Origin: Maribacter aquimaris
GTDB lineage: Bacteria; Bacteroidota; Bacteroidia; Flavobacteriales; Flavobacteriaceae
NCBI RefSeq assembly: GCF_014596745.1
Contig: NZ_JABTCF010000001.1
Location: forward strand, 1-64,000
Reading direction: 5' to 3'
DNA length: 64,000 nucleotides
Shown here one piece after another: positions 1,457-10,006 of this stretch (position 1 is the stretch's first letter; every line of letters starts with the position of its first letter). The position numbers and the translations under genes were made by a program. The notes beneath the pieces were generated by a model, which was not told the origin of the DNA, did not search any database, and was given only the letters and a program-made list of their open reading frames with translations.

Positions 1457-2614
1457 ATGATTCCTAAAGGTGTTGAAAATCAAATTGTGAAATATTTTTC
1501 ACAGTCTGCCGATATCCATGATTTGGACTTTTTGAACGAGTGGATAAAAAATGAAGAAAATCGAAGTATTTTCAAGGAATATGTTAAAACCCATTTTGCG
1601 ATAAATTTAACTATGAACGACCCTAGTTTTGATAAAATCAAAGACGAGCTCCTTAGGGAAATCCATAATGATAAAAAGTCATTGATCAAGGTAAAGCTCT
1701 TATCGGTTTTAAAATATGCAGCTATCGCTATTTTATTTATGGGGATAGGGTTTGCAATCAGCAAAAATGAATCTAGTGCTGAAGGGTTGATAAAACCAAG
1801 GGAAAATAGCATCACATTAAAATCCGCTACTGGGGAAGTAGAAGTAATCAAAGAGAACGGGAGCCAACAACTAATTGATGAAAAAGGTGAGATAATTGGC
1901 GCTCAAAAAGGAAAACAATTGGTCTATAAAGATCAGAAAAATACTTCTGAAATACAGTATAATACTTTGACCATTCCTAAAGGCAAGCAATTTGGACTCG
2001 TGCTTTCCGATGGAACAAAGGTTCAATTGAATGCTGGGAGCTCCATGACGTATCCAATAGCTTTTAGTCCCAACAGTCCTAGAAAAGTGGAGTTGACCGG
2101 AGAGGCTTATTTCGAAGTCAGTCACGACCAAAAACGACAGTTCATTGTCAATACACAGGAACTCGACGTAAAAGTATATGGTACCAGATTTAATGTGGCC
2201 AATTATCCTGAGGATGAGAATACCGAGGTTGTTTTGGTAGAAGGGTCCGTAGCCTTGTCTAAGCAGGGAGAAACACTAAAAAAGAAAGAGGAAGTATTCC
2301 TAAATCCGGGGCATATGGGAGCTTATAATAAAAGGGATAAGAATATTGTGGACCAAAAAGTCAATACATCACTTTACACGTCATGGATGGAAGGTAATCT
2401 TGTTTTTAGAAACGAAACATTTGAAAACATTACCCGTAAGTTAGAACGACATTACAATGTGGTCATAATCAATAACAATAAGGATTTGGCAGATGAAACC
2501 TTTAATGCTACGATAGAAATGAACCAAGAAACCATTGAGCAGGTCTTTAACTATTTCAATAAAATATACAGGATTGAATATCAAATTGTTGAAAATAAAA
2601 TAATCATTAATTAA
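1457..2614 (+). CDS. FecR family anti-sigma factor
   Basis: A 385-residue transmembrane anti-sigma factor. The cytoplasmic N-terminal part (about 1-80) would hold the ECF sigma factor. One membrane helix lies near residues 84-103 (VLKYAAIAILFMGIGFAI). The periplasmic FecR domain begins around residue 175 with TIPKGKQFGLVLSDGTKVQLNAGS (two adjoining pieces of the hallmark) and VELTGEAYFEVSHD, and the C-terminal DUF4974-type region ends the protein (FRNETFENITRKLERHY). It sits just upstream of a SusC that carries an N-terminal STN domain, the partner that contacts FecR in trans-envelope signalling. It presumably senses substrate-loaded SusC and frees the sigma factor at 743-1342. Confidence 0.93.
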   Translation: MIPKGVENQIVKYFSQSADIHDLDFLNEWIKNEENRSIFKEYVKTHFAINLTMNDPSFDKIKDELLREIHNDKKSLIKVKLLSVLKYAAIAILFMGIGFAISKNESSAEGLIKPRENSITLKSATGEVEVIKENGSQQLIDEKGEIIGAQKGKQLVYKDQKNTSEIQYNTLTIPKGKQFGLVLSDGTKVQLNAGSSMTYPIAFSPNSPRKVELTGEAYFEVSHDQKRQFIVNTQELDVKVYGTRFNVANYPEDENTEVVLVEGSVALSKQGETLKKKEEVFLNPGHMGAYNKRDKNIVDQKVNTSLYTSWMEGNLVFRNETFENITRKLERHYNVVIINNNKDLADETFNATIEMNQETIEQVFNYFNKIYRIEYQIVENKIIIN

Positions 2615-2695
2615 TACATAATGCCTATGATATAGAAACAGAGGAATAAACCATGATTATTTTCATCTTTTATCATAAAAATTGGTACAAGAAAA

Positions 2696-2727
2696 AAATC
2701 GGAAAATGTTACAGCATTTCCCGATTT
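2696..2727 (+). promoter_or_regulatory. Hairpin in the susC leader
   Basis: The arms AAATCGG and CCGATTT pair perfectly and continue as AAAT/ATTT after a one-base bulge, closing an eight-base loop. No U-run follows, so it is not an ordinary terminator. It lies about 50 bases before the SusC start and could be a 5' stability or attenuation element; the role is inferred. Confidence 0.35.
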
Positions 2728-2778
2728 CGTAAAGTAATCAAACCAAAAAAGCATGATCACCAATAAACACTCAAAATT

Positions 2779-5700
2779 ATGAAAAAACCAACAAAGTCAG
2801 GGGGGATAACCCCATGGCGCTTAAAATTTGACTTAAAAATGAAGTTATCACTTCTTTTTTTAATTACCGTAAGCTTCGTAATGCATGCAAACTCATCGTA
2901 TTCCCAAAAAACCAAAATATCCTTGGATCTTGGGAATGCTACTGTGGAAGATGTTATTGATGAAATTGAAGCGACTACAGAATTCAAATTCATCTTCAAC
3001 ACCAAGTCCATAGATTTAAAGCGAAAGGTCTCCATCAATGTCAGTAAAGCACCCATTACAAAGGTGTTGGATTTACTTTTTGATAAAGAGAGTATAGGTT
3101 ATGAGATAGATAATCGCAAAATTTTACTATATGGTGGTCCAAATAAGAAAACCTCCGAACAAGACTCGGGTATGGAGTTGCAAAACCTACAACTACAGGT
3201 CAGTGGAGTCATTACCGATGAAAATGGAACCCCTCTTCCTGGTGCGAGTATTATTGAAAAGGGGACAACTAACGGAACCACTTCTGATTTTGACGGCATT
3301 TTCGCAATAGATGTTTCCAATTCCGATGTGATTTTGGTTATTTCCTATATTGGTTTTACCACTAAGGAAGTGGCTGTTCAAGGTCAAACCAGTATTTCCA
3401 TCACCTTAAAGGAAAATGCGTCGGCCTTGGATGAAGTAGTGATTACTGGCTATACAGCAGAACGGAAGAGTGATCTTACCGGGGCAGTGGCTATAGTAGA
3501 GATGGGTGAGGTTGTAAGTCAACCCGTTGCCAGTGTGGATAATATGCTGCAAGGTAGGGTTTCAGGTGTAGAACTCATAAGTTCCGGTTCGCCAGGAGGT
3601 GCTAGTACACTTAGGATTAGGGGGTATAGTACCATCAGGAACAATGATCCACTTTACGTTATTGATGGGGTTCCCACCACTACGGATATAAACCTGATCA
3701 ACCCGAATGATATTGCATCATTACAAGTTTTAAAAGATGCCTCATCCTCTAGTATTTATGGTTCAAGGGCGGCCAACGGGGTTGTTATCATCACAACGAA
3801 AAAGGGTACATCGGATAAGGCCAAGATTTCATTTAATATGCATGCCGGTATTCAAAATACCAGAAATCTACCGAATAACCTAAATGCCCAAGAGTATGGA
3901 GACATCTATTGGGAAGGTTTTAATAATGACGGTATAGCCCCTTCCCATAGTATTTATGGAAATGGAGCCGTTGCTGTAATCCCTGCTTTTTTAGATGCCG
4001 AGAATACCATTCCATCGGCCAATACAGACTGGGTAGAAGAAATTTTTAATCCTGCGCTCATTCAATCGTACAATTTGAGTTTTGCTAAAGGAGGTGAAAA
4101 TTCACATTCCTTTTTTTCCTTAGGTTATTTCGATCAGGAAGGGACTTTAAAAAACACGGATTTCAGTAGGATCACGGCCCGACTTAATTCGGACTATAAA
4201 TTGTTTGATGATAAGGTTATCGTTGGTGAAAATTTGACCGTCGCTTACGCTAGCTCTGTCGGTACGGACACCAACTCCCTGCTCGGAAATGCGGTTTATG
4301 ATGCATACCGTATACCAAGTATTGCCCCGGTATATGATATTAATGGGGATTATACAGGATATCCCTTATCCGATGTACAGAATCCTTTGGGAAATCTAGA
4401 GCGTAACAAAGATAACAACGTGGATAATGTTAGGGTTTTCGGAAATTTATTTACCGAAATAAAACTTTTCGATGATTTAAAATTCAAAACAAATTTCGGG
4501 ATAAATTACACCTCTATCAAGGGGACCACATTTAATCCAACCTTTAAGGAACCCAATGCCCAAAGGGTAATAAATGATTTGGAGGTTAGAGATGAATTAA
4601 AGTTTGATTGGGTATGGTCCAACACCCTTAATTATACAAAAACATTGAATGAAAAACATAAGTTTAATGTATTGTTGGGTATTGAAAGTATTGAGAATCT
4701 TTATCAAGTAACAACTGCTTCCATAGATGATTTACCTACAAATGAAATCAATGTTAGGGTATTAAATGCGGGAGATCAAGGCACACAGACCAATACAGGG
4801 GATAAAATAGAATTTTCATTGTTCTCTTATTTTGGAAAGTTGAATTATGTTTATGATGACAAGTATTTATTTTCCGCAACGTTACGACGGGATGGAACTT
4901 CTAAATTATTGAACAACCGTTGGGGAACTTTCCCTGCACTTTCCGTAGGATGGAAGGTTTCGGAAGAAGATTTCTTTAATAAAGAGGGGGTATTGTCCAA
5001 TTTAAAATTTAGGGCAGGATGGGGAATAACCGGAAACCAGGATATACCAGCATATCAAACTGTTTCAGGATTTAGCAGTAACCCCAATTATTCCAATTAT
5101 GCCATAGATGGATCACAATCCAGCACACAGACCGGGTTCACTTTGTCCAGGATTGCCAATCCGGATTTAAAATGGGAAACAACCACACAAACCAATGTGG
5201 GTCTGGATTTTGGATTTTTGGATAATTCGATAAATTTCACGGTTGATTATTTTGTCAAAAAGACAGATGACCTGTTATTGTTTAAAACACTTCCCGCTGA
5301 CCAGTCCGGTATTACCAATCGTGGACAATGGCAGAATGTAGGGGAAATGGAAAACAAAGGATTCGAATTGGCCGCCGATTTTCAAAGCGATCGAACTAAG
5401 GATTTTAATTATAACGTAGGAGTGAATTTTTCAGTAATCGACAATAAATTATTGTCCCTTGGTGAAGGAATCGATTTTATAGAAACCGATCCAGGCGTTT
5501 TGCATAGCACTAATTTTGATCAATCAACTTCCAGAACGGGTATAGGTCAACCAATAGCTTCTTTTTATGGACATGTGGTCGAAGGAATTTTTCAAACGGA
5601 TACGGAAGCGACATCCAGTTTTCAACCCACTGCCGTGGCCGGGGATTATAAATTCAAGGATTTGAATGAAGATGGGGTTATCAATGATGCTGACCGGACC

Positions 5701-8327: not shown

Positions 8328-8669
8328 TTAATAAAATAGAATGCTTCTTCGATTATCATGCTTTTTCTTCAGGTATTGAAGGGGTAAGTGGGGTGGTAGG
8401 GCAGGTTTATTGACTTTTGGCTGGGGTTCTTCTTTTTTAAGGACAACTTCAGTACGTTTTTTAGATATGCTCGTAGATGCGCTTATTTTCGATAATAGTT
8501 CGGCCTTATCGGAATTTGAAACCAAACCCAGTTCCAAATATTTAATGAGAGACCTTTTAATGAGGGTCATGAACAACCAGTGTTCACGTTGGGTTTTAAA
8601 GCGATTGTCCCCGGCCTTAATTAGAGTTTGTCGTACTAGGGTAGGGGAAAATAAGGAGATAAAAGACAT
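8328..8669 (-). CDS. Hypothetical protein, doubtful
   Basis: A 113-residue frame if the ATG at 8669 is used. A longer start at 8741 would lie inside the tRNA-Met gene and is rejected. The product has a helical-looking N-terminal half rich in Lys, Arg and Leu (LIKRSLIKYLELGLVSNSDK) and a proline-rich tail (KEEPQPKVNKPALPPHLPL). I do not recognise a family. The ATG directly follows the U-run of the tRNA-Met terminator, so it would need read-through or its own promoter. An opposite-strand frame of 97 codons covers the same DNA, so coding is uncertain. Confidence 0.35.
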   Translation of the reverse strand: MSFISLFSPTLVRQTLIKAGDNRFKTQREHWLFMTLIKRSLIKYLELGLVSNSDKAELLSKISASTSISKKRTEVVLKKEEPQPKVNKPALPPHLPLQYLKKKHDNRRSILFY

Positions 8670-8670
8670 A

Positions 8671-8701
8671 AAAAAAACGGTTTGTGCGTACACAAACCGT
8701 T
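8671..8701 (-). terminator. Rho-independent terminator of the tRNA-Met transcript
   Basis: A perfect 11-bp stem (8676-8686 with 8691-8701, AACGGTTTGTG/CACAAACCGTT) closes a four-base loop. Read on the minus strand it is followed by a run of T. It sits 24 bases past the tRNA 3' end. Confidence 0.85.
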
Positions 8702-8724
8702 GATTTTGCTGGTATTGACCTTTG

Positions 8725-8798
8725 TAGCGAGAGGGGGGCACGATCCCCCGACCTCCGGGTTATGAATCCGACGCTCTAACCAGCTGAGCTACCTCGCC
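8725..8798 (-). tRNA. tRNA-Met (CAT anticodon)
   Basis: A 74-nt cloverleaf on the minus strand. The acceptor strand GGCGAGG pairs with TCTCGCT (G-U at both ends), the D arm is GCTC/GAGC around AGCTGGTTA, the anticodon loop is TTCATAA, and the T stem is GGGGG/CCCCC. The 3' CCA is not encoded. Two departures from the usual pattern: the anticodon stem has A31 opposite C39, and the T loop reads ATCGTGC, so positions 54 and 58 are A and T instead of T and A. The conventional G1 end and TA at 8-9 suggest elongator rather than initiator Met, though a CAT anticodon can also mark a tRNA-Ile modified at C34; I favour Met. Confidence 0.88.
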
Positions 8799-9482
8799 AT
8801 TTAAATTGTTCTGAACATATTTTCATGCTATATGTCAGACTACTAAAGCTACTGCTGACGAAACTTTGTTTGTCAGCATCCTGATAAAGACCACGTCTTT
8901 CATCAGGACTCGCCATTTGAATTATTCTGAACATATTTTCATGCTATATGCCAGACTACTAAAGCTACTGCTGACGAAACTTTGTTTGTCAGCATCCTGA
9001 TAAAGACCACGTCTTTCATCAGGACTCGCCATTTAAATTGTTCTGAACATATTTTCATGCTATATGCCAGACTACTAAAGCTACTGCTGACGAAACTTTG
9101 TTTGTCAGCATCCTGATAAAGACCACGTCTTTCGTCAGGACTCGCCATTTGAATTGTTCTGAACATATTTTCATGCTATATGCCAGACTACTAAAGCTAC
9201 TGCTGACGAAACTTTGTTTGTCAGCATCCTGATAAAGACCATGTCTTTCATCAGGACTCGCCATTTTACAATTATTCCGACAATATTTAAATCTGTCAGA
9301 AAACAAAAGCTACTGCTGACGAAACTTTGTTTGTCAGCATCCTGATAAAGACCATGTCTTTCATCAGGACTCGCCATTTTACAATTATTCCGACAATATT
9401 TAAATCTGTCAGAAAACAAAAGCTACTGCTGACGAAACTTTGTTTATCAGCATCCCGATAAAACTACGTCTTTCATCATCGC
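8793..9482 (-). repeat. Six tandem 113-116 bp hairpin repeats forming the tRNA-Met leader
   Basis: Units start at 8793, 8909, 9025, 9141, 9257 and 9370. The four nearest the tRNA are 116 bp (type A) and the two distal ones 113 bp (type B); the most distal is degenerate at its outer end. Every unit begins with CTCGCCATT, the complement of the first tRNA bases plus upstream flank. Each holds two hairpins of the same design. One has 7-bp arms TGCTGAC/GTCAGCA, a one-base bulge, AAAC/GTTT and a three-base loop. The other has arms TCCTGAT/ATCAGGA, a one-base bulge, AAAGAC/GTCTTT and a three-base loop. A third hairpin differs in sequence between types A and B but keeps TCTGRCA paired with TGT(T)C(A/G)GA. 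A single promoter lies upstream, so the array should be transcribed as the leader of tRNA-Met. Confidence 0.93.
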
Positions 9483-9506
9483 TCAGCATATCGTTTTAAA
9501 CGGCTG

Positions 9507-9537
9507 CAAATATAAAGTTTAATTTTTGGTTCTTCAA
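9507..9537 (-). promoter_or_regulatory. Promoter of the repeat array and tRNA-Met
   Basis: On the minus strand, TTG at 9537-9535 is followed after 20 bases by TATATTTG at 9514-9507, matching the Bacteroidetes -33/-7 pattern (TTG, TAnnTTTG). Transcription should start near 9500, just before the first repeat copy, and run about 830 bases to the terminator at 8671. Confidence 0.75.
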
Positions 9538-9622
9538 CATTCATCTTAAAAAAATATTCTTCCTCTTTTATTTTTTTATCATTTAGATTTATATATATTG
9601 CCCATAATAAATACCAATCTTG

Positions 9623-10006
9623 ATGAGCGATAAGACTAAATTTGAAATTGAATTTGTAATACAGTCTTCACCCCAATTGTTATATCAGTATTTGTCAACA
9701 CCTTCCGGACTTTCGGAATGGTTTGCCGATAATGTCAATTCGAGGGGGGAGTTGTTCCGGTTTATTTGGGATGGCACTGAAGAAGAAGCTAAATTATTAA
9801 AAAGAAAGAGCGAGGAATTCGTAAGATTCGCTTGGGAAGAGAATGATGATGATTCTTACTTTGAAATGAGGATCATCGTTGATGAGATCACCAAGGATGT
9901 TTCACTTTTTATCATAGATTTTGCAGAAGAGGACGAAGTGGATGAAGCAAAAATGCTTTGGGAAAATCAAGTAACCGACCTTAAACAGGTTTTAGGTTCA
10001 AAATAG
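9623..10006 (+). CDS. START-like domain protein (AHSA1/SRPBCC superfamily)
   Basis: A 127-residue single-domain protein of the flavobacterial START-like family. It opens MSDKTKFEIEFVIQSSPQLL, which leads into the first strand and helices of the helix-grip fold, and contains LYQYLSTPSGLSEWFADNV, the typical SRPBCC 'substrate pocket' lead-in. The C-terminal part is strongly acidic. The ATG at 9623 is preferred to the in-frame TTG three bases earlier. The ligand is unknown. It is followed by a strong terminator at 10037. Confidence 0.85.
   Translation: MSDKTKFEIEFVIQSSPQLLYQYLSTPSGLSEWFADNVNSRGELFRFIWDGTEEEAKLLKRKSEEFVRFAWEENDDDSYFEMRIIVDEITKDVSLFIIDFAEEDEVDEAKMLWENQVTDLKQVLGSK

Follow-up and report, generated by a model that had tools for sequence, protein, structure and literature searches.

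Positions 1 to 64,000 of contig NZ_JABTCF010000001.1 from Maribacter aquimaris (Bacteroidota, Flavobacteriaceae; assembly GCF_014596745.1), the 64,000-nucleotide stretch referred to here as the window, contain on the minus strand, at 8799-9487, six direct repeats of 112-116 bp lodged between the promoter of a tRNA-Met gene and the tRNA gene itself. In every unit the 5′ part of this same tRNA is copied in truncated form, with a palindromic twin hairpin interrupting it. Because these tRNA-front copies are plugged by an element that is also found in other tRNA copies, often beside a gene for a GIY-YIG catalytic domain, the array looks selfish rather than like a leader, and we consider it rather probable that what remains here is a tandem, enzyme-less vestige of a family of selfish DNA that inhabits tRNA genes in Bacteroidota. 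The original prediction for this locus had offered a structured RNA or regulatory leader of tRNA-Met, perhaps acting as a decoy for RNase P, or else a mobile element of the repetitive extragenic palindrome (REP) kind captured by a tRNA gene. That interpretation is supported in part, since the last of its alternatives comes nearest to the evidence and the leader and decoy ideas are not supported.

The units, numbered U1 to U6 from the promoter (Table 1), lie in tandem directly 5′ of tRNA-Met on its strand, as had been predicted. In U2 to U6 the order is GGCGAG (tRNA bases 1-6), a 56-bp twin hairpin, GTAGCT, a third hairpin and an AT-rich linker. GTAGCT is close to the next bases of tRNA-Met, GTAGCTC. 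The repeats had been described as not continuing into the tRNA, but they resume its sequence behind the hairpins and are thus tRNA copies with an insertion. This also removes the need for a decoy role of GGCGAG, which is present because the unit is a truncated tRNA copy; the hexamer, claimed for every unit, opens five of the six but not U1, which begins GCTGAG. Hairpins 1 and 2 have the architecture originally proposed, with a 7-bp arm, a one-base bulge, an inner stem and a three-base loop, and the third hairpin indeed comes in two sequence types with its pairing kept: the versions in U1-U2 and U3-U6 both fold. The total is nearer 17 hairpins than the 18 foreseen because the first hairpin of U1 is degenerate. 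Identity is 97-98% among U3-U6, 92% between U1 and U2, and 79-87% between U1 or U2 and U3-U6. Tandem Repeats Finder gives the array a score of 1049, and the sole other array in the window scores 50.

A second such array elsewhere in the same genome had been overlooked. When the window hairpins were searched against the 27 contigs of the assembly, the same hairpins turned up where contig C8 begins and contig C6 ends, in an array of CAU-tRNA copies with 116-bp spacing, probably one locus split by the assembly. Its unit consists of the first 19 bases of another CAU tRNA, GGTCCCATAGCTCAGTTGG, followed by a twin hairpin that differs in sequence from the window's and has the same bulges, and then by TTAGAGCA, GGGAC and a linker; TTAGAGCA resumes the tRNA exactly at the interruption point. 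On contig C2 a twin lies within the T-loop of a 3′ copy of tRNA-Leu, directly after a GIY-YIG open reading frame (ORF), and by sequence the intact partner of this copy is the tRNA-Leu(gag) at the end of contig C22. Tandem Repeats Finder together with reading gave 3′-type copies of tRNA-Leu(caa) (five), tRNA-Asp (four), tRNA-Val(tac) (two), tRNA-Phe (one) and tRNA-Val(gac) (one), and the tRNA-Phe copy locus carries two GIY-YIG ORFs. The bases after GGTTC in the T-loop are replaced by CCCCGA....TCGGGG in 13 of the 13 T-loop copies of this genome (five tRNAs), and the motif GTTCRANNC, kept in the five intact partner tRNAs, is gone from all 13. At a tRNA-Met on contig C12, initiator-like by sequence, there is a 5′ copy with another hairpin in its D-loop. 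By eye and script combined, 9 of the 37 tRNA genes of the genome have such copies. The script alone, with matches of at least 13 nt, found them for 6 of the 37 on the same strand and for none on the opposite strand, while a swap control gave 12 of 1282. The window array (a 6-nt match), Val(gac) and Leu(gag) escape the script and were added by eye.

The number of units differs from one genome of the genus to another, and some have an empty site. We searched 12 Maribacter genomes, this one included, and read the tRNA-Met locus in it and in eight congeners (G254, G255 and G256 were left out). The promoter lies directly on tRNA-Met, with no array, in G249, G258 and G032; there are two units in G252 and a decayed remnant in G253, while G250 and G251 have other short inserts. 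G257 has a single copy that carries two twins, one behind GGCGAG and one at D-loop position 19|20. Occupied and empty alleles are therefore found at one and the same place, with a copy number from six to none.

The twin hairpin was modelled with R1, a covariance model made from 13 sequences of other genera only. R1 matches U2-U6 at E values of 1.5e-9 to 2.9e-9 and U1 weakly, at 1.3e-3. Across its 18 pairs, 94.3% of cells are paired, as against 23-51% in slid controls, and both-side changes occur in 7 of the 18 pairs (13 rows), a number reached by 0 of 500 shuffles. Hairpin 1 with a 1-nt 5′ bulge followed by at least 3 bp was found in 49 of 81 distinct closing sequences (shuffle mean 4.5, maximum 11, 200 runs), and hairpin 2 with a 1-nt 3′ bulge in 16 of 85 (shuffle mean 1.5, maximum 7). 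The search pattern itself dictated the outer CTGA/TCAG letters, which therefore prove nothing; it left the inner stems free. Compensatory changes and related elements beside tRNA genes, on which the original prediction had staked itself, are both present, and the related elements are inserted into additional tRNA copies that lie upstream or downstream of the tRNA. At E ≤ 0.01, 7 of the 12 Maribacter genomes have matches (best 150 candidates per genome), and ARAGORN finds a tRNA in 13 of the 15 such loci read: Leu(gag), Met, Val(tac), Arg(tct) and Asn, with one match between Leu(taa) and Gly. The two loci without an ARAGORN tRNA are C2 of the M. aquimaris genome (a contig end) and G257:C168. 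Within the M. aquimaris genome, R1 rows fall only in tRNA copies (the window, C6/C8 and C2), among the best 150 of 1717 candidates. A strict twin pattern gave three matches in 249 genomes of the family, namely the present genome and two loci (L008, L009) that look unlike the element.

Placement was examined more widely by scanning GTDB contigs with the pattern CTGAN{10,24}TCAGNATGCTGAN{8,20}TCAGCA, which matched at least 113 stretches; the counts that follow hold among the matches listed. These include 62 loci carrying 71 twins with closing hairpins, and the remainder serves as a rough chance control, though not one of pure chance because the closing filter drops some real members (L186 and L157, the latter being the window array as it occurs in M. 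polysiphoniae). Bacteroidota account for 52 of the 62 closed-twin loci. Of the 71 closed twins, 32 have an intact tRNA no more than 300 bp away, as against 3 of 52 that do not close, and D- or T-loop flanks, defined by a strict expression, are found for 34 of 66 closed versus 2 of 52 not-closed distinct sequences. Exact flanks on a neighbouring tRNA placed 40 of the 71 closed twins, always as direct repeats, 13 upstream and 27 downstream (L195 supplies five and L213 two of these rows because both strands match). The upstream copies break at 19|20 or 20|21, in the D-loop, in 11 of 13 cases, and 24 of the 27 downstream copies resume at 53-59, in the T-loop (65 in long Leu tRNAs). The same element thus occupies extra copies of many tRNAs. 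Of the 40 placed cases, 35 are at 19|20 or in the T-loop, the D-loop copies lying upstream and the T-loop copies downstream of a single intact tRNA. The exceptions are L149 and L217 (both at position 34), L175 (10|11), the second copy at L160 (20) and L191, which is probably chance. By eye, the anticodon arm is replaced by a hairpin in some copies (L124, L160, L181, L184). The second tRNA-Asn copy of a Crocinitomicaceae contig (L160, 1420-2150) appears by eye to have all three loops replaced by hairpins or inserts, with the stems kept.

GIY-YIG genes were sought in the same loci with a small profile made from four proteins of the M. aquimaris genome. An ORF was found in 21 of the 113 listed loci, within 82 bp of the twin in 20 and at 2,772 bp in one; the close ORFs belong to 19 of the 62 closed-twin loci and to 1 of the 51 without closed twins. 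PF01541 was identified in 10 of 10 ORFs tested from related loci, with PF10544 just over its cut-off in two. NCBIfam gave no match in four GIY-YIG ORFs, and PHROGs gave one weak homing-endonuclease match among five. Genome G265 has 40 R1 rows on many contigs, both strands counted (best 41 candidates). All four of its small GIY-YIG genes lie at tRNA-Arg(cct), tRNA-Thr(cgt), tRNA-Pro(cgg) or the transfer-messenger RNA (tmRNA), as annotated by ARAGORN. At one locus the 5′ half of tRNA-Thr, up to the anticodon loop, is followed by a twin (R1 E 1.9e-9), a GIY-YIG ORF and the intact tRNA-Thr(cgt), and this locus is the autonomous counterpart of the window design. At another (L308, G265:C31) a GIY-YIG gene directly follows the tmRNA gene. 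R1 matches at none of the seven Y1_Tnp loci of G265, so that no gene for a REP-associated tyrosine transposase (RAYT) flanked by the repeat was found there; the M. aquimaris genome has one sub-threshold Y1 match, with another palindrome beside it. On these results a RAYT was rejected as the partner enzyme. In a score-ranked sample of 29 Flavobacteriaceae GIY-YIG loci, two of them UvrC-like, flanking direct repeats of at least 18 nt are found at 17, and one locus (L294) has tRNA-like repeats by eye.

A phage system suggests how such arrays might arise. In phage T6, SegB is a tRNA-linked GIY-YIG nuclease that breaks DNA within tRNA genes, with the motif RAWTSGAAC at 23 of 83 sites, and tandem repeats of tRNA plus truncated segB need SegB nuclease activity and recombination and collapse without selection (PMC13096335). 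On the other strand the motif becomes GTTCSAWTY, which reads as the T-loop, an identification of our own. Copies in Bacteroidota are interrupted at T-loop sequence matching this reversed motif and at a D-loop look-alike, GGTTAGAG, and from this we infer a break, a duplicating repair, one intact tRNA and a plugged target. According to this model, a GIY-YIG nuclease acting in cis or in trans would break tRNA genes at the conserved GG|TTNGA of the T-loop or its D-loop look-alike, and recombinational repair would leave tandem copies of the tRNA end, of which only those products that retain an intact tRNA would survive. The copy beside the native flank would carry hairpins that plug the target and so would not be recut, and later unequal crossing-over would expand the plugged unit. 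At the window locus the nuclease gene would have been lost and the plugged unit multiplied, while transcription of the array would still start at the native promoter, and RNase P would release the tRNA from a long precursor. As a tentative proposal, to which we would give somewhat less than even chances, the family may be a miniature tRNA-gene parasite in which a catalytic-domain-only GIY-YIG protein and a twin hairpin invade fixed loop positions, restore one tRNA and leave loop-plugged, immune scars that multiply without the nuclease. That the protein has no DNA-binding domain and that palindromes are nested in G265 suggests an enzyme that may read the structure of hairpins in addition to their sequence.

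The likeness to SegB and the free-standing GIY-YIG homing endonucleases of T-even phages (PMC13096335) extends to a GIY-YIG gene beside tRNA genes, the T-loop motif and tandem tRNA repeats. SegB makes breaks within tRNA genes and its truncated gene forms part of the repeats; here cleavage would be expected by analogy. Our system differs in lying on Bacteroidota contigs, in a protein of little more than a catalytic domain, and in truncated tRNA copies, of both 5′ and 3′ types, that are plugged by conserved twin hairpins. Short bulged palindromes, two in mirror orientation over about 50 bp, and the nested palindromes of G265 recall REPs, bacterial interspersed mosaic elements and the REP doublets called REPINs (PMC3116915, PMC3733652), but here the neighbouring gene is GIY-YIG rather than RAYT, the placement is in tRNA copies and few copies exist in the M. 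aquimaris genome. CGTC-REPs are reported from Bacteroidetes among other phyla and have been described as lacking a dedicated transposase (PMC3116915, PMC3733652). Since our element ends in ..GCGTCAGCA with its letters partly paired, we do not assign it to them. Our element would act as a homing element does and resembles a REPIN in appearance, but as tested here it lacks one defining feature of each, the DNA-binding domain of the former and the RAYT flank of the latter. The rtT repeats at tyrT of Escherichia coli are also tandem, each with a piece of the tRNA end, and so resemble our arrays in having units that contain a tRNA end and lie beside the tRNA; we know of no hairpin plug or nuclease link for rtT, and to our knowledge it is found on the 3′ side only. 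Integrative elements use tRNA and tmRNA genes and restore the gene end, and thus share with our element the tRNA target and the restored end; unlike them, it is minute, restores 5′ ends as well and has no recombinase in 16 neighbouring ORFs.

Several observations weigh against the view that the array is the remnant of a selfish family. No GIY-YIG gene was seen at the window array, and its units carry the element after GGCGAG, at position 6, rather than in the D-loop, a placement that we explain by G257 with its twins at both places. One outer pair of R1 is unpaired in 9 of the 13 rows, and at E ≤ 1e-4 R1 finds matches in only 8 of 149 genomes of the class, this one included (best 41 candidates per genome). 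Among the scan matches listed, no placement on a tRNA was possible for 31 of the 71 closed twins, and nine or ten of the 62 closed-twin loci, probably chance matches, carry names outside Bacteroidota. The ORFs, at 80-104 aa, contain little beyond the PF01541 catalytic domain and show no separate DNA-binding domain of the sort that a homing endonuclease should have. Ten twin loci were read in G265: none contains a tRNA, and eight lie in larger palindromes. Only one of the six GIY-YIG loci of that genome, the one at tRNA-Thr, has an R1 match. In the Flavobacteriaceae sample a tRNA lies within 400 bp of only 4 of the 29 loci (L276, L288, L297, L304), and R1 detects no significant twin in the 27 that remain when the two UvrC-like loci are set aside (best E 0.054); the link between GIY-YIG and the twin is therefore not universal. 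At L160, one of four occupied loci whose neighbouring ORFs were tested, an IS110-type transposase gene (2380-3402) lies about 230 bp after the tRNA-Asn copies, so that another mobile enzyme is possible there; some IS110 relatives are known to target palindromes. Finally, the plugging logic leaves it unexplained why the intact tRNA of the same locus is spared.

Some of these points would suit a passive origin, in which the twin is an ordinary REP- or REPIN-like palindrome that inserts into hairpin loops, whether of tRNAs or of other palindromes, tRNA genes merely tolerate it in copies that arose by ordinary tandem duplication, and the GIY-YIG gene is a passenger while another enzyme does the mobilising. 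The larger palindromes around eight of ten twins in G265, the plain hairpins in the anticodon loops of some copies, the different hairpins (CCCCGANNNNTCGGGG and others) in the same tRNA loops and the transposase at L160 all agree with it. We nevertheless regard this origin as unlikely, because the R1 rows of the M. aquimaris genome, among the best 150 of 1717 candidates, are confined to tRNA copies rather than dispersed, none of the seven Y1-transposase loci of G265 has an R1 match, and 20 of the 113 listed loci have a GIY-YIG ORF within 82 bp. A regulatory or structured leader RNA of tRNA-Met would account for the conserved pairing and for the position of the array between promoter and tRNA, where it is presumably transcribed. 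It is very improbable, however, given the empty sites and variable copy number in the genus, the absence of any matching Rfam family, and the presence of hairpins of this kind behind terminators, in tRNA 3′ copies, a position from which no leader could act.

We give scarcely any credence to two further ideas. A decayed attachment-site array of an integrative element would fit the use of tRNA and tmRNA genes and the restoration of gene ends, both typical of such elements, as well as the GIY-YIG gene behind the tmRNA gene of L308; yet 16 ORFs, each at least 120 aa long, that flank four occupied loci (L160, L179, L201, L321) yielded no site-specific recombinase, insertions also restore 5′ ends, and the units measure only about 100-380 bp. 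Equally slight are the chances that pseudo-tRNA transcripts serve as decoys or sponges for tRNA-cutting toxins or for phage or defence nucleases, an idea to which the second copy of L160 lends itself, in which, judged by eye, the tRNA stems are kept and all three loops replaced. Defence that targets tRNAs is a known selective force (PMC13096335). Against this, the copies in the M. aquimaris genome are fragments, T-loop copies lie behind terminators, and the loops, where anticodon nucleases cut, are missing.

Table 1. Features of the tRNA-Met locus in the window
Feature	Position	Strand	Remarks
Native tRNA-Met promoter, Bacteroidetes-like, TTGAAG-17-TATATTTG	9509..9537	-	Now upstream of the array; abuts the tRNA in G249, G258 and G032
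U1, decayed copy, 112 bp	9376..9487	-	Begins with GCTGAG where the native tRNA has its +1; twin hairpin weak; R1 E 1.3e-3
U2, 113 bp	9263..9375	-	GGCGAG + twin hairpin (9314-9369) + GTAGCT + third hairpin type A + AT-rich linker
U3, 116 bp	9147..9262	-	GGCGAG + twin hairpin (9201-9256) + third hairpin type B
U4, 116 bp	9031..9146	-	GGCGAG + twin hairpin (9085-9140) + third hairpin type B
U5, 116 bp	8915..9030	-	GGCGAG + twin hairpin (8969-9024) + third hairpin type B
U6, 116 bp, abuts intact tRNA	8799..8914	-	GGCGAG + twin hairpin (8853-8908) + third hairpin type B
Intact tRNA-Met (CAT), unusual T-loop ATCGTGC	8724..8798	-	ARAGORN + Rfam
Intrinsic terminator 3′ of tRNA-Met	8676..8701	-	Terminator stem found

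The signals flanking the array agree with the original prediction: a promoter-like TTGAAG-17-TATATT precedes it, and a terminator stem follows tRNA-Met. The promoter scan alone is weak, since the region has 6 promoter-like sites as against 4.5 in shuffles, and the promoter stretch is identical by eye in the eight congeners whose locus was read, with or without the array. Four unit-sized stretches gave fold z values of -1.8, -2.8, -4.5 and -2.2 (200 shuffles each), with 9, 0, 0 and 4 of the 200 shuffles as stable; the excess of fold stability is strong in two and modest in two, and tRNA-Met itself scores -0.3. No Rfam family matches the array at gathering or permissive thresholds, the search returning the tRNA plus a sub-threshold plastid match antisense to a tRNA. 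The plastid match, to the Plastid-ycf2 5′UTR family, lies at L006 355-429 on the minus strand, antisense to a tRNA-Met (46.8 bits, cut-off 65.7), and the family probably contains tRNA-like sequence. The array was rightly held not to be made of clustered regularly interspaced short palindromic repeats (CRISPR), as its units abut head to tail, with no unique spacers. Hammerhead-like and kink-turn-like readings of CTGATGA..GAAA were rejected on inspection because the core does not fit.

In the tRNA-Met of the window the T-loop reads ATCGTGC and its stem GGGGG/CCCCC, in place of TTCAAGT and GAGGG/CCCTC; this tRNA is one of 2 of the 37 tRNAs of its genome without GTTCRANNC. The same T-loop is found in G249 and G258, and a normal one in the six other congeners; the change could be an escape from a T-loop-cutting nuclease. 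A START-like gene (9620-10006) seems by eye to neighbour this tRNA-Met, and a START-like gene (PF19569) also neighbours the invaded tRNA-Met of a distant Bacteroidetes genome (L201, 2727-3101), so that the two are perhaps the same old locus, invaded independently. Other repeats were also seen. At L084/L050 (G000:C5 6729-8583), tandem GIY-YIG gene fragments are repeated together with the 3′ end of a protein gene that looks by eye like tex, and with the palindrome GGTCGAGCGCAGTCGAGACC, in the same style of duplication as at tRNAs. At L065 (G000:C3 201502), a RAYT-like ORF with the palindrome CTTCAAGGTTTTGAAAACCTTGTAGGT beside it is a separate REP system. CCCCGAAGCGTCGGGG palindromes within longer similar repeats with GCTAAATC..GCTTTAGC arms (L067, L077-L080; G000:C3, C9, C12) are not tRNA copies and perhaps form an integron-like array.

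We found no description in the literature of hairpin-plugged tRNA copies or of GIY-YIG/tRNA elements in Bacteroidota chromosomes, which does not establish their absence in print, and there is a fair chance that the twin-hairpin family is a new kind of element. If our interpretation is correct, it would explain the tandem arrays of tRNA ends, several of which lie at contig ends of the assembly (C2, C5, C6, C8 and C22), and it would supply a candidate partner enzyme for palindromic repeats of Bacteroidota where RAYTs do not fit. It would also connect chromosomal DNA with the amplification driven by SegB in phage. Given that tRNA genes are essential, an element that cuts into their best-conserved motifs and spares one copy every time would represent a striking selfish strategy.

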